A stretch of 64,000 nucleotides of DNA from Rhodoblastus sp. 17X3 (GTDB lineage Bacteria; Pseudomonadota; Alphaproteobacteria; Rhizobiales; Beijerinckiaceae), in the NCBI RefSeq assembly GCF_030056575.1, contig NZ_JASHHX010000009.1, positions 62,001-126,000 of the forward strand. The letters run 5' to 3'. A model generated the notes under the pieces. The model was not told the DNA's origin, did not search any database, and saw only the letters and a list, made by a program, of their open reading frames with translations. The translations under genes and the position numbers were made by a program. The stretch's first letter is position 1. Every line of letters begins with the position of its first letter. Below are positions 25,674 to 47,001 of the stretch, piece by piece.

Positions 25674-26768
25674 ATGGACTGGTCCGCGCAGCAGGAGAAG
25701 GCGCTTTCCACCGTCGCGGACTGGATTTCCGATTCCCGCGCGCCGCAGGTTTTCCGGCTGTTCGGTTATGCTGGCACCGGCAAGACGACCCTGGCGCGCC
25801 ATGTCGCGGAAAATGTTGATGGCGAGGTGCAGTTCGGCGCCTTCACCGGCAAGGCCGCGCTCGTCCTGCGCGAAAAGGGCTGCGGCGAGGCGCGCACGAT
25901 CCATTCCATGATTTACCGGCCCAAGGATCTCGACACGGAAGAGCCGAGCTTCGTGCTGAATGAGGACAGCTCGGCCTCCAAGGCCAGCCTGATCGTCATC
26001 GACGAATGCTCCATGGTCGATGAGGAATTGGGCCGGGACCTGCTCTCCTTCGGCAAGAAGGTTCTGGTGCTGGGCGATCCGGCGCAATTGCCGCCGGTCA
26101 AGGGCGGCGGCTATTTCACCGAGCAGGAGCCGGACGTCATGCTGACCGAGGTTCATCGGCAGGCGGCGGGCAATCCCATCGTGCGGCTGTCGATGCAGAT
26201 CCGTGCCGGGGAAAGGCTCGCGCTGGGTGATCACGGCGCAATGCGCGTGGTGTCGCGCACGGCGATCGACGCCGAACTGGTGAAAGGGGCCGATCAGGTC
26301 CTGGTCGGCCTCAACAAGACGCGCCGCGCCTATAACAAGAGGCTGCGGGAGTTGCTTGGCTTCAAGGAGGCCATGCCCGAAGTCGGCGAGAAGCTGGTCT
26401 GCCTGCGCAACGACAAGACCAAGGGCCTGCTCAATGGCGCGATTTTTCGCGTCAACAAGGCGGCGGGCCTGCGCCGGGCGCGCTATCGCATGAGCCTGAC
26501 GCCAGACGAGGCCTCGGGCGGCAAGCCAATCCGCGTCGGCGTGCTGCCGGCCTTTTTCGAGGGCGCGGAGGAAGGCCTGTCCTACGCCCAGCGCCGGGAA
26601 TCGGATGAATTCGATTACGGCTATGCGCTGACGGTGCACAAGGCGCAGGGCTCGCAATGGGACAATGTCGTGCTGTTCGACGAAAGCTGGGCCTTTCGCG
26701 AAAACCGCGAGCGCTGGCTCTATACCGGCGTGACCCGGGCGGCGAAAAGCCTAACGGTGGTGGTTTGA
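25674..26768 (+). CDS. RecD-like ATP-dependent DNA helicase
   Basis: 364 residues from ATG 25674, the first methionine before the conserved QQEKAL Q-motif; the frame extends to 25521 with no family match. Superfamily 1B helicase: Walker A GYAGTGKTT (residues about 31-39), Walker B IVIDECSMVD, motif III LVLGDPAQLPPV, motif IV-like EVHRQA, motif V/VI YALTVHKAQGSQWDNV and YTGVTRA. Much shorter than RecD or TraA, similar to the stand-alone Dda/RecD-type helicases carried by many alphaproteobacteria and their phages. No recB/recC nearby. It ends at a strong terminator. Confidence 0.88.
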   Translation: MDWSAQQEKALSTVADWISDSRAPQVFRLFGYAGTGKTTLARHVAENVDGEVQFGAFTGKAALVLREKGCGEARTIHSMIYRPKDLDTEEPSFVLNEDSSASKASLIVIDECSMVDEELGRDLLSFGKKVLVLGDPAQLPPVKGGGYFTEQEPDVMLTEVHRQAAGNPIVRLSMQIRAGERLALGDHGAMRVVSRTAIDAELVKGADQVLVGLNKTRRAYNKRLRELLGFKEAMPEVGEKLVCLRNDKTKGLLNGAIFRVNKAAGLRRARYRMSLTPDEASGGKPIRVGVLPAFFEGAEEGLSYAQRRESDEFDYGYALTVHKAQGSQWDNVVLFDESWAFRENRERWLYTGVTRAAKSLTVVV

Positions 26769-26984: not shown

Positions 26985-27012
26985 TTGCATGTCATCATTT
27001 CTGGCTTATATT
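26985..27012 (+). promoter_or_regulatory. Sigma70-type promoter of the Pta-AckA-DUF3141 operon
   Basis: TTGCAT (26985-26990), 16-bp spacer, TATATT (27007-27012). One of the few AT-rich stretches here; predicted start near 27019, giving a leader of about 150 nt. Confidence 0.6.
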
Positions 27013-27025
27013 GCGGTGCAGCAAA
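27012..27025 (+). promoter_or_regulatory. Candidate PhaR-type operator
   Basis: TGCGGTGCAGCAAA, containing TGC-N3-GCA, the core of the PhaR site described in Paracoccus (CTGC-N3/4-GCAG, from memory). It overlaps the end of the -10 element and the predicted start site, a repressor position. It agrees at 12 of 14 bases with the site at 44624. Confidence 0.5.
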
Positions 27026-27127
27026 TCAGGATTCGCGGCGCGCGTCGGCGCGTTGACGCCAAGGATTATTGCAGGGGCGGCCCAGCGGCCCGTTCCGTCC
27101 GGCCCGCCTGAGCGCGAAAGCCGACGG

Positions 27128-27156
27128 CGGAACGGCGAGCGTTCCGGCCCCTTTTT
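27128..27156 (+). terminator. Terminator-like hairpin in the leader of the Pta operon
   Basis: Stem CGGAACG / CGTTCCG (27128-27134, 27140-27146), 5-nt loop, then CCCC and five Ts to 27156, ending 16 bp before the ATG. It could act as an attenuator or end a short leader RNA. Confidence 0.5.
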
Positions 27157-27172
27157 GTTTGCGAGGCGATTT

Positions 27173-28603
27173 ATGAAAACGGTGAAAACCATTTCAAACA
27201 AGACCTGGGCCCAGCTGCAGGTTGGCGATACGGCGACGATCGAGCGCGTCTGCGCCGACCGCGACCTGTTCCTTTTCGCGCATGTCTCGGGCAACATTAA
27301 TCCGCTGATGCTGCCCGTTGACGAGGACGCGCCTGTCGCCGACGCGCCGATCGCGCCGTCAATGTGGGTCGGATCGCTGATTTCGGCTGTTCTGGGCAAT
27401 ATCCTGCCCGGCCCGGGCACGCTCTATCGCGAGCAGAACTTCGAATTTCTCAATCGCGTTCACGTGGGCGACCATTTGCGGGTGACGGTGACCTGCCGTG
27501 AAAAGCGCGCGGAGCCGACGGTGGTGTTCGAGACGGTCATCGCCAATGGCGCGGGCGAACTCGTCTGCAAGGGAACGGCCCTGATCGACGCTCCGATCCG
27601 CAATGTCGAGACCCCGGTGCGCGAATTGCCGGCCCTGATCATGGACAAGAAGGACCACTTCTCCCATCTGCTGGCTCTCGCCGCGCAACTGCCGCGCCTG
27701 AAGACCGTGATCGTCTGCCCGGAGAGCCATAATGCGCTCAATGGGCCGCTACTGGCGTTCGAGAAGGGCCTGATCGAGCCGATCTTCATCGGCGATCCGG
27801 AGCGAATCGCCAAGGCGGCGCTGGAGCTGGAGGCGGATCTTTCGCCCTTCAGGATCATCGATGAGAAGAACCATCGCGCCGCCGCCGACAAGGCTGTGGC
27901 CATGGTGCGCGCGGGAGAGGCCGGCGCGGTGATGAAGGGCGATCTGCATTCGGATGACCTGCTTGCCGCGGTCGTCAAGAAGGACGGCGGCCTGCGCACC
28001 GGGCGCCGGATCAGCCATGTGTTCGTGCTCGACACGCTCACCCTCGACGACCTGCTGTTCGTCTCCGACGCCGCGATCAATATCGCGCCCGATCTCCTGA
28101 CCAAGGTGGATATCGTCCAGAACGCGATCGATCTTGCACTCGCCTGCGGCGTCGAGCCGAAGGTCGGCGTGCTCTCGGCGGTCGAGACCGTCAACCCCGC
28201 CATTCCCTCCAGTCTCGATGCGGCCATCCTGTCGAAAATGGCTGAACGCGGCCAGATTCGCGGCGGCGTCGTCGACGGCCCGCTGGCAATGGACAACGCC
28301 ATCGACGTGGACGCGGCGCGCACCAAGGGCATCGCCTCGCTGGTCGCAGGCCACGCCAATGTGCTGATCGCGCCCAATCTGGAATCCGGCAACATGCTGG
28401 CCAAGGAACTGACCTTCGTCGCCCATGCCGAAGCCGCCGGCCTGGTCGTCGGCGCCTCGGCCCCCGTCATGCTCACCAGCCGCGCCGACAACGACAAGGC
28501 GCGCCTCGTCTCCTGCGCGCTGGCGCAGCTTTATAATTATTGGCGTCAGAACGGCCACGCCTATGCCGGGGCGCAGGAGTCCAAGGCGCTCGCAGCCGAA
28601 TAA
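27173..28603 (+). CDS. Bifunctional MaoC-like enoyl-CoA hydratase / phosphate acetyltransferase
   Basis: 476 residues from ATG 27173 (GAGGCGAT upstream). Residues 10-140 form a MaoC hotdog domain (ADRDLFLFAHVSGNINPLM, then GTLYREQNFEFLNRVHVGD). Residues about 160-470 are a Pta/PTB domain: LKTVIVCPESHNAL, EPIFIGDPERI, GAVMKGDLHSDDLL, GGVVDGPLAMDNAI and APNLESGNMLAKEL. The second domain interconverts acetyl-CoA (or butyryl-CoA) and acyl phosphate; the first hydrates enoyl-CoA or is a remnant. The fusion is well known in Hyphomicrobiales, beside ackA. First gene of the operon pta-like, ackA, DUF3141. A PhaR-type site on the promoter suggests control by PHB state. Confidence 0.93.
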   Translation: MKTVKTISNKTWAQLQVGDTATIERVCADRDLFLFAHVSGNINPLMLPVDEDAPVADAPIAPSMWVGSLISAVLGNILPGPGTLYREQNFEFLNRVHVGDHLRVTVTCREKRAEPTVVFETVIANGAGELVCKGTALIDAPIRNVETPVRELPALIMDKKDHFSHLLALAAQLPRLKTVIVCPESHNALNGPLLAFEKGLIEPIFIGDPERIAKAALELEADLSPFRIIDEKNHRAAADKAVAMVRAGEAGAVMKGDLHSDDLLAAVVKKDGGLRTGRRISHVFVLDTLTLDDLLFVSDAAINIAPDLLTKVDIVQNAIDLALACGVEPKVGVLSAVETVNPAIPSSLDAAILSKMAERGQIRGGVVDGPLAMDNAIDVDAARTKGIASLVAGHANVLIAPNLESGNMLAKELTFVAHAEAAGLVVGASAPVMLTSRADNDKARLVSCALAQLYNYWRQNGHAYAGAQESKALAAE

Positions 28604-44274: not shown

Positions 44275-44427
44275 TCAGCCGATCTGCGTGAACAGCGTGG
44301 CGGCGAGAATGAGCGCGCCCACGAACAGGCTGGGATGATAGCCCCATTGCGATGAATGCGGCCAGGTTGGCAGCGTTGCGAAGAAGGCGAGAATCAAGGC
44401 GGCGATCAACAAGGTTCCAGGGGACAT
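44275..44427 (-). CDS. DUF3309 small membrane protein
   Basis: 50 residues from ATG 44427, with GAGGAGG 5 nt upstream. The translation starts MSPGTLLIAALILAFFATLP, then TWPHSSQWGYHPS and a second hydrophobic helix, the exact layout of DUF3309: helix, LPTWPxSxxWGYxPS loop, helix. Tiny inner-membrane protein found in many proteobacteria, function unknown. Convergent with the preceding small gene. Confidence 0.85.
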   Translation of the reverse strand: MSPGTLLIAALILAFFATLPTWPHSSQWGYHPSLFVGALILAATLFTQIG

Positions 44428-44623
44428 GGCGGCCTCCTCGAGGCGGCGACGTCCGGCGCGCCGGGGCGCATTTCGTCCTGGTCGACCAAAACCCGCGCCC
44501 TGGGGCGAGCCGTCAGCGGTCTTTTCCTGGCCTAAAACGCGCGAGGCCGAGCAAAGTTCCCCGGTGGCCCCTTGATTTTACGGTGGTTTCTCCCCGCGTG
44601 GCAATGTCATGCGAATTTTATGA

Positions 44624-44637
44624 TGCGGCGCAACAAA
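44624..44637 (+). promoter_or_regulatory. Candidate PhaR-type operator (upstream copy)
   Basis: TGCGGCGCAACAAA, core TGC-N3-GCA, just before the -35 of the sRNA promoter. Exactly 31 bp (three helical turns) from the next copy. Confidence 0.5.
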
Positions 44638-44643
44638 ATGGTC

Positions 44644-44672
44644 TTGACTATTTGTGCGACGCAACATAAGTT
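44644..44672 (+). promoter_or_regulatory. Promoter of the sRNA
   Basis: TTGACT (44644-44649), 17-bp spacer, TAAGTT (44667-44672). Predicted start about 44680. The second PhaR-type site fills the spacer. Confidence 0.55.
44655..44668 (+). promoter_or_regulatory. Candidate PhaR-type operator (spacer copy)
   Basis: TGCGACGCAACATA, core TGC-N3-GCA, lying between the -35 and -10 elements, a classic repressor position. Confidence 0.5.
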
Positions 44673-44679
44673 TAGAACC

Positions 44680-44768
44680 GTAGCACAAGCGGTGCTTGTG
44701 CTGCAGCCCTCCTTGGGCGTTTCCTCCCTAGACTTGGGCCGCTGGTTTGACCGGCGGCCTCTTTTTTT
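44680..44768 (+). ncRNA. Probable small RNA, MmgR (alpha-r8)-like
   Basis: About 89 nt. A 5' hairpin (AGCACAAGC-GGT-GCTTGTGCT parts at 44682-44702), an unpaired pyrimidine-rich middle with CCCTCC (44707-44712) and TTTCCTCCCT (44720-44729), then a strong Rho-independent terminator (44738-44768). The middle is complementary to ribosome-binding sites. From memory, TTTCCTCCCT is the conserved core of the alpha-r8 family, whose Sinorhizobium member MmgR (about 77 nt) limits PHB accumulation. Two PhaR-type sites on its promoter and the PHB-related genes nearby support that identity. No open frame in the transcript. It reads into the convergent dehalogenase gene but stops 23 bp before it. Confidence 0.68.
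44738..44768 (+). terminator. Intrinsic terminator of the sRNA
   Basis: Nine-base stem GCCGCTGGT / ACCGGCGGC with one wobble pair, loop TTG, followed by CTC and seven Ts (44762-44768). Confidence 0.85.
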
Positions 44769-44790
44769 ATCTGGTCGCGTCCCTGGCGAT

Positions 44791-45592: not shown

Positions 45593-46234
45593 TTACAGTG
45601 CGACGGTGAACGTCGCCTCCGTCTTGGACTTGATTTCCTCCACCGTCACGCTCTCGGCGAGTTCGATCAGCTTGGCGCCGCCATTGCCGTGCTTGTCGAT
45701 GGAGAACACGCCGAGATCGGTGATCAGCAGGTCGACGACATGCGAGCCGGTCAGCGGCAGGTTGCATTTGTGGAGGAATTTCGGGCCGTCCTTGGCGACA
45801 TGCTCCATCACCACCACGACCTTCTTGACGCCCGCGACAAGGTCCATGGCGCCGCCCATGCCCTTCACCATCTTGCCCGGAATCATCCAGTTGGCGAGGT
45901 CGCCGTTCTCGGCCACCTGCATGGCGCCCAGGATCGACAGGTCGATATGGCCGCCGCGGATCATGGCGAAGGAATCGGCGGACGAGAAATAGCTCGTCGT
46001 CGGCAGTTCCGTGATGGTCTGCTTGCCGGCGTTGATCAGGTCGGCGTCCTCTTCGCCCTCATAGGGGAAGGGGCCCATGCCGAGCATGCCGTTCTCGCTT
46101 TGCAGCTGCACGCTCATGCCGTCGGGGATGAAATTGGAGACCAGCGTCGGAATGCCGATGCCGAGATTGACATAGAAGCCATCGCGCAGCTCTTTCGCCG
46201 CGCGGGCCGCCATTTGATCGCGTGTCCAGGCCAT
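45593..46234 (-). CDS. scoB: 3-oxoacid CoA-transferase subunit B
   Basis: 213 residues. Beta subunit of the family I CoA-transferase; the catalytic glutamate is in [11 protein letters not shown]. Also [15 protein letters not shown] and the Gly-rich [19 protein letters not shown]. With ScoA it moves CoA from succinyl-CoA to acetoacetate, the entry step for acetoacetate released by PHB breakdown. The gene starts one base into the scoA stop region (shared base 46234), so the two are tightly coupled. Confidence 0.95.
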
Positions 46235-46965
46235 CAGACTTCTCCTCCCGCGGCCGCCGCCGGGCTGGTGTGTTTGCGCGTGGTGCGCTGCTCGATATGT
46301 TTGGTCGGGTTTGGAATATGCACGATGCGCTGCACGTAGATGCCGGGGGTGTGGATCTCGTCGGGGTCCAGCTCGCCCGCCTTGAACAGGTGCTCGACCT
46401 CGGCCACGGTGATCTTGCCCGCCGTCGCCATCATCGGATTGAAATTGCGCGCGGTCTTGCGGAAGACGAGATTGCCCTCGGTGTCGCCCTTCCAGGCGTG
46501 GACGATGGAAATATCCGCGACGAGGCCCGTCTCCATGACGTAATTCTCGCCGTTGAAGACGCGGGTCTCCTTGCCTTCGGCGACGAGGGTGCCGTAGCCG
46601 GTCTTGGTGTAGAAGGCCGGAACGCCCGCGCCGCCGGCGCGGATGCGCTCCGCCAGCGTGCCCTGCGGGTTGAATTCGATCTCAAGCTCGCCGCCGAGAT
46701 ATTGCTGGGCGAACAGCTTGTTCTCGCCGACATAGGACGAGATCATCTTCTTGACCTGCTTGGTCTCAAGCAGCACGCCAAGTCCGATGCCGTCGACGCC
46801 GGCGTTGTTGGAAATGAAGGTGAGGTTCTTCGCGCCGGATTCCTTGACCGCTTCGATCAGGGACTCGGGGATGCCGCACAGGCCGAAGCCGCCGGCCATC
46901 AGCGTCATGCCGTCCTTCACCAGTCCGGCCATGGCGGAACTGGCGTCTGGATAAACTTTTTTCAT
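46234..46965 (-). CDS. scoA: 3-oxoacid CoA-transferase subunit A
   Basis: 243 residues from ATG 46965. Alpha subunit with the CoA-binding segment [16 protein letters not shown] (family signature), [14 protein letters not shown], and [36 protein letters not shown]. Forms the heterotetramer with ScoB. A short TGC-N3-GCA motif 26 bp upstream (46992-47000) might be a PhaR-type site. Confidence 0.95.
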
Positions 46966-46990
46966 GGGCGAATCCCGTATTTTGGACTTA

Positions 46991-47001
46991 TTGCCCTGCA
47001 A
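46991..47001. promoter_or_regulatory. Possible PhaR-type site upstream of scoA
   Basis: TTGCCCTGCAA: TTGC-N3-GCAA palindrome containing TGC-N3-GCA. It agrees less well outside the core with the sites at 27012 and 44624. Confidence 0.35.

Follow-up and report, generated by a model that had tools for sequence, protein, structure and literature searches.

The window, i.e., the whole 64-kb stretch of Rhodoblastus sp. 17X3 DNA that was analysed, contains a single match above the gathering thresholds of an Rfam covariance scan. This match, to the family RF00519 (suhB/MmgR, alpha-r8; 'Makes More Granules Regulator RNA'), is located at 44699-44774 on the plus strand and covers the whole model (1-77) with 79.3 bits against a cut-off of 41. 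A first-pass annotation had proposed an MmgR-like small RNA (sRNA) of the alpha-r8 type at this place; the covariance model bears this out with an E value of 9.1e-15 and a score far above gathering. Likewise, each of the short elements that it had named (TGCGGCGCA, TTGACT, TGCGACGCA, TAAGTT, CCCTCC, TTTCCTCCCT and a run of seven T) is present where it had been placed.

The RNA is predicted to extend from 44681 to 44768 on the plus strand. The start near 44681, and with it the length of approx. 88 nt, were deduced by analogy with Sinorhizobium meliloti, since the coordinates reported for mmgR place the beginning of transcription 9 nt downstream of the -10 hexamer (PMC7143759, PMC12542648). In the predicted fold, the three-hairpin arrangement of alpha-r8 RNAs, with an intrinsic terminator as the last hairpin, was found. 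The 5' hairpin (44680-44704) has 11 pairs, and the Rfam match does not include its left arm; a small second hairpin (44706-44718) closed by GCCC/GGGC carries the CCCTCC motif (44707-44712) partly in its loop; and the conserved 10-mer TTTCCTCCCT (44720-44729), the anti-Shine-Dalgarno core, is unpaired in the minimum-energy structure. The strong terminator claimed earlier was recovered by a terminator search and by the fold as an 11-pair stem followed by a T run (44736-44768, with T7 at 44762-44768). The folding energy of 44680-44768 is -46.9 kcal/mol (z -5.84), and none of 200 shuffled sequences was equally low.

Conservation of these helices was followed in an alignment of nine copies of the window locus, from Rhodoblastus and near relatives. 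All 11 pairs of the 5' stem are kept, and at four of them both sides have changed; for the two helices tested, 100% of the alignment cells are paired, versus 24-57% when the partners are slid. The pairs of the second hairpin are invariant in these nine sequences, so this hairpin is without covariation evidence. The window element is a well-conserved predicted sRNA gene of the alpha-r8/MmgR family. Contrary to the first-pass annotation, the flanking DNA is not fully empty, because a micro-gene for a 50-aa DUF3309 protein (PF11752, 55.3 bits) is located upstream on the minus strand, at 44275-44427.

The sRNA promoter and its two predicted PhaR boxes

The promoter consists of a -35 element TTGACT (44644-44649, plus strand) and a weak -10 element TAAGTT (44667-44672) that shares three bases with TATAAT, separated by a spacer of 17 bp. 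A generic sigma-70 scan of the window did not list this promoter. The assignment, including that of the -10 element, is made by homology with mmgR of S. meliloti strain 4H41, which shows TTGACA-N17-TACAGT in the same register and a PhaR box at the matching place. Two predicted PhaR boxes accompany the promoter of the window: one upstream at 44618-44638 (core TGCGGCGCA, 44624-44632), and one between the -35 and -10 elements at 44649-44669 (core TGCGACGCA, 44655-44663), with 31 bp from core to core. The two TGC-N3-GCA sites had been put forward as candidate PhaR sites, and both indeed match the full consensus reported for S. meliloti, WNWD2NYGCRNYGCRNH2WNW (PMC12542648). This consensus occurs four times in the window (44618-44638, 44649-44669, 26314-26334 and 27006-27026) versus 0.38 expected, and none of 100 shuffles reached four. 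In the genome (4.18 Mb) the core TGCRNYGCA is found 484 times and the reversed pattern 215 times; two cores within 31 bp are therefore unusual. The B. diazoefficiens consensus TGCRNYGCASMA, which was derived from DNase I footprinting together with additional promoters (PMC6201568), is matched in its 9-base core, and the window sites, TGCGGCGCAACA and TGCGACGCAACA, have A where S is expected. The match at 27006-27026 (TTATATTGCGGTGCAGCAAAT) overlaps the TTG start of an ORF (27011-28603) that by eye looks like a phosphate acetyl/butyryltransferase fusion and whose true start may be further down; this ORF is a candidate further target of PhaR.

In S. meliloti, PhaR (AniA) was reported to bind the mmgR promoter and to repress mmgR; mmgR was EMSA-positive, and altered palindromes abolished the shifts (PMC12542648). 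The control of the sRNA by PhaR, suggested for the window from its letters, is thus supported here by the motif, but it is not new: the link is already known from S. meliloti. The available text of that report lists a single PhaR site for mmgR, and describes two palindromes flanking the -35 element for phaP1 and phaP2 (PMC12542648). A report of an mmgR promoter with two PhaR boxes was not found in the parts of the literature covered; the 2016 phylogeny and 2018 promoter papers could contain one.

The Rhodoblastus genome has one phaR gene (G000 C67:154568-154888; TIGR01848, 144.9 bits), divergent from reading frames that by eye resemble phaA and phaB; no TGC-N3-GCA site was found before phaR in this region (L110). 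Six Phasin_2 matches were detected. One of these phasins (L104) has the promoter TTGCACTGCA...CTTGACT..TGTGCGGTGCATATAA, in which two boxes, TGCACTGCA and TGCGGTGCA, lie 30 bp apart around TTGACT. Of the others, the neighbouring phasins L108 and L106 (region L111) show two boxes 20 bp apart before the first gene, L105 has a single box, L109 has a box within the reading frame that begins at its first ATG, and L107 has no box near its start. The predicted layout of the sRNA promoter is essentially that of L104: in both, a TTGACT -35 element is surrounded by two PhaR boxes that are 30-31 bp from each other.

PhaR boxes among the relatives

At the level of the order, RF00519 was detected in 131 of 150 genomes, and at that of the family in 117 of 119. 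Promoters were counted in the 138 genomes with a usable first copy; L132, L134, L140, L143, L149, L151 and L155 were left out, either because the anchor was lost at a contig edge or because no core was recognised, and L155 was later replaced by L311. The core TGCRNYGCA is present between -110 and -20 of the RF00519 start in 79 of the 138 genomes, versus 14, 4, 4 and 13 in four equally long control intervals. With the relaxed form YGCRNYGCR, a box was found in the -35/-10 spacer of 91 genomes and in the remaining 47 it was not. Among these 91, a partner box lies 18-24 bp downstream in 60, 27-34 bp upstream in 12, and on both sides in four. The downstream partner, approximately two helical turns away, is far in excess of the shuffled expectation (60 pairs versus 1.42, with 40 at exactly 21 bp), and so is the upstream partner at approximately three turns (12 versus 0.67). 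At the other spacings the observed and expected values were 2 and 1.45 (+27 to +34), 1 and 0.7 (-24 to -18), 6 and 2.15 (+9 to +17), 0 and 0.93 (-17 to -9), and 6 and 2.37 (-60 to -35).

The window and its genus-mates have the upstream, three-turn version, at 29-32 bp. This raises the question of whether both boxes act. It might be argued that the spacer box is the real operator and that the upstream one, at 44624, has no function or arose by accident, control being exerted from one box as in S. meliloti, where a single mmgR site is listed (PMC12542648). A pattern scan for a spacer box plus the 10-mer could be read in this way: it returned 69 stretches, including some from Sinorhizobium, Shinella, Nitratireductor, Hyphomonas, Azospirillum, Methylocystis and Rhodoblastus, and in 56 of them the spacer box is alone within the scanned stretch, in a scan that preselects the spacer box and hence says nothing on its frequency. 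Against this, all ten relatives of the locus examined (L038, L043, L131, L248, L256, L268, L270, L281, L283 and L302) show a second box, strict or relaxed, 29-32 bp upstream of their spacer box, although in L038, L256 and L281 it has only the relaxed form CGCGNYGCA; in addition, the -34 to -27 interval is enriched as described above, although four of its 12 cases are Rhodoblastus, the remainder coming from three further families. One-box control is therefore considered unlikely, and two operator boxes are the preferred reading. The promoter of one genus-mate (G216) is identical to that of Rhodoblastus acidophilus MO (L302). Taken together, these counts suggest that control of MmgR-type RNAs by PhaR is seemingly widespread and usually involves a partner box at helical spacing; the experimental evidence for such control comes from S. 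meliloti (PMC12542648).

The distribution of PhaR points in the same direction. PhaR is present in 128 of the 150 genomes. A strong RF00519 match, defined as a best E value up to 1e-7, a cut chosen after the tables were inspected, occurs in 110 of the 128 genomes with PhaR versus 3 of the 22 without it, and by family majority in 37 of 43 families versus 1 of 9; these numbers are inflated by common descent, families and genomes not being independent, and their Fisher values are descriptive. Six PhaR-positive families have no strong match, so the link between PhaR and the RNA is not obligatory. The box itself was evaluated in 102 of the 128 genomes with PhaR and in the 8 usable ones of the 12 PhaR-less genomes having RF00519 matches: in its strict form it is present in 65 of the 102 (79 in the relaxed form) and in none of the 8, which belong to four families and whose RNA matches are mostly weak.

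These results also bear on the identity of the regulator. NtrC was reported to activate mmgR in S. meliloti (Ceizel Borella 2018, via review), and the dyad could in principle serve NtrC or another protein. Nevertheless, the motif equals the PhaR site that was footprinted and tested by EMSA (PMC6201568, PMC12542648), it precedes phasin genes in the host, and the PhaR-less genomes tested lack it, so that a regulator other than PhaR seems very improbable, and PhaR is retained as the predicted ligand of both boxes.

Sibling copies and genomic context

Three RF00519 matches are present in the host genome: the window copy (L001), which has the best family score among them, a second copy (L002) with 51.1 bits, and a third (L003) that stays below the cut-off with 39.6 bits. 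In 104 of 155 loci examined the RNA has an FGase-like or a HisN/inositol-phosphatase-like gene as its neighbour, and both are present in 84, including S. meliloti mmgR (L278); the linkage to FGase has been reported for most species (PMC12559287). L002 occupies this place, since its flanking proteins match TIGR02067 (above the cut-off) and hutG_amidohyd (below it). The FGase-like neighbour, usual though not obligatory for alpha-r8, is absent from the window copy, which is flanked by a 110-aa ORF and a haloacid dehalogenase type II (HAD) gene (TIGR01428); at 11 of the 155 loci, all of the Rhodoblastus type, at least one of these two neighbours has a homolog. Because the FGase/HisN place is held by L002 and its own neighbours are only Rhodoblastus-type, the window copy is, as judged from gene order, a relocated paralog at a place that among these loci is occupied only in those of the Rhodoblastus type, and L002 is the positional ortholog of S. 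meliloti mmgR. L002 has a damaged box (TGCGGCGCG), and in two genus-mates (L147 and L145) the positional ortholog keeps good boxes.

The neighbourhood of the window copy is closely preserved in the metagenome-assembled genome of Rhodoblastus sp. BP08 (L248), whose HAD, CoA-transferase, 110-aa and aminotransferase proteins are 91.6% to 98.6% identical to those of the window, and the same neighbourhood is present in three MAG contigs classified as Proteobacteria (L256, L270 and L281). Subunits A and B of a 3-oxoacid CoA-transferase (TIGR02429 and TIGR02428) are encoded on the minus strand at 45593-47001, 0.8 kb from the sRNA. Such enzymes belong to the breakdown of acetoacetate and PHB. As a fixed partner of the sRNA they are unlikely, because in a survey of 155 loci, most of which span just 1.5 kb of flank, they are beside it only in L001 and L248 and partly in L270.

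Other copies deserve a brief description. Genome G160, of the same family, has 14 RF00519 matches, two of which, on contigs C3 and C5, have equal scores, so some of its copies may be plasmid-borne. The second copies L318 and L319 (G171 and G208) have a diverged promoter with a TGCGACGCG box and no clear -35 element; upstream they share a conserved inverted repeat resembling TGGCAGCG..TGCTGCCA, which may be a further operator. Two weak matches that lack the CCTCCC core, L308 and L310, were set aside as probable false positives. Two of the 14 control genomes matched RF00519, one above the cut-off; one of the two is Thermus composti, where a match was unexpected because it is not an alphaproteobacterium, and its score may be the one above or the one below the cut-off.

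A second type of promoter was detected among the siblings. In four Rhodoblastus genomes, with 14 copies, the FNR/FixK-type motif TTGM-N6-KCAA (e.g., TTGAGGCAAATCAA and TTGATCTCGATCAA) is located at -60 to -68 from the model start in all seven copies whose spacer lacks a PhaR-type box (L003, at C55:8851-8925 of the host genome itself, and L311, L146, L154, L309, L153 and L307) and in none of the seven that have it; one of the latter (L131) shows a poorer FNR-like match, TTGCAAGGGAGCAA, at -93. Between -80 and -50, the motif is absent from the remaining 169 of 176 loci, including the 162 outside the 14 Rhodoblastus copies, and eight control intervals gave 0 to 4 matches; this count does not include L132, L134, L140, L143, L149, L151, L308, L310 and L206, the last of which has too short an upstream stretch. 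In six of the seven copies a TATNNN hexamer follows 22 nt after the end of the box; in L309 the hexamer is poorer and the distance is 20 nt. A distance of 22 nt is the class II geometry of FNR activators. The host genome encodes a Crp/Fnr-type protein (L331) with an Fnr-like cysteine pattern, and we infer that FNR or FixK would be the actual regulator of these copies. Since four of the seven look closely related, they perhaps represent three independent lineages.

From this distribution, it may be proposed, with slightly more for it than against it, that the alpha-r8 RNAs of Rhodoblastus are split into PhaR-switched copies that would respond to PHB state, including the relocated window copy, and FNR/FixK-activated copies that would respond to oxygen, both with one anti-Shine-Dalgarno core. 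If true, storage and oxygen state would be summed at a common set of mRNAs. The siblings suggest how promoter change alone can connect a single RNA family with different signals, which bears on why many α proteobacteria keep several copies. FNR/FixK-type boxes on alpha-r8 copies are not reported in the portions of the literature available, and here too the 2016 phylogeny and 2018 promoter papers could contain such a report.

Proposed role and comparison with known systems

The reading that we favour, to which we give a probability of roughly three in four, is that a trans-acting alpha-r8/MmgR sRNA, produced from about 44681 to 44768, is repressed by PhaR at two boxes around the -35 element and brakes the build-up of PHB. 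It is based on family membership, structure, the PhaR motif, the phasin-promoter layout and the co-occurrence with PhaR, all of them read from sequence; we infer that PhaR binds at the locus and does so cooperatively, which mRNAs are bound, and that the window copy affects PHB. In this model, PhaR would repress the sRNA at the two predicted boxes flanking the -35 element until PHB granules form and PhaR is drawn off to the granule. Its titration would then release the sRNA together with the phasin genes that have a like promoter, a joint release that is predicted because the promoter layouts are alike. The unpaired UUUCCUCCCU of the sRNA would cover ribosome-binding sites and limit the granule proteins, and the result would be an incoherent feed-forward loop acting as a brake on PHB accumulation.

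The least certain step concerns the mRNAs. The sources available name no direct target of mmgR (PMC7143759, PMC12559287). When the open region of the sRNA was paired with the start regions of the six phasins, energies of -16.3 to -20.9 kcal/mol were obtained, versus a background of 41 genes with a mean of -20.4 and a standard deviation of 5.1; these are duplex energies alone, with no accessibility term, and the background consists of crude gene calls from the window. There is thus no enrichment of direct phasin pairing over background, a negative result that is not a disproof, and direct targeting of the phasins is unsupported by these energies. An alternative, less probable than the favoured reading yet one to be taken seriously, is that a PhaR-controlled alpha-r8 sRNA acts mainly on a broad group of mRNAs with strong Shine-Dalgarno sequences, as SisA in Caulobacter, the effects on PHB being indirect. 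Broad targeting of this kind would agree with the lack of any pairing advantage of the phasin start regions over background; the layout shared by the sRNA promoter and a host phasin promoter argues against it, as does the deletion of the core in S. meliloti, which was reported to raise PHB by approx. 20% and the PhaP1 and PhaP2 proteins while their mRNA was unaffected (PMC8401924). A PHB-braking role for the window copy remains the preferred reading, and this role may be shared, since the genome has two further copies.

The closest known relative is MmgR itself (SmelC689) of S. meliloti. Both RNAs have the RF00519 model, the 10-mer core and the terminator; both genes have a promoter of the form TTGACN-N17 whose spacer contains a PhaR box, and PhaR is encoded in both genomes. 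In contrast, the window promoter has two predicted PhaR boxes instead of one, the 5' stem is longer, the predicted length is approx. 88 nt versus 77, and the genome has three RF00519 matches, one of them below the cut-off. The genomic place also differs: S. meliloti mmgR lies between HisN/IMPase-like and FGase-like genes, like L002 and unlike the window copy. SisA-D of Caulobacter crescentus, which belong to the same family, are likewise several copies in one genome with unrelated promoters, and the available text reports no conserved motif upstream of sisA-D (PMC12559287), whereas the Rhodoblastus copies have PhaR-type and FNR/FixK-type promoters. The arrangement of the window promoter is also that of phaP1 and phaP2 of S. 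meliloti and of phaP1 of B. diazoefficiens, where two PhaR boxes flank the -35 element; however, those promoters drive phasin genes and the window arrangement would drive a non-coding RNA. To these systems the present comparison of genomes would add a phasin-like layout on an sRNA promoter, two helical arrangements of the PhaR boxes, the relocation of a copy and siblings of the FNR type.
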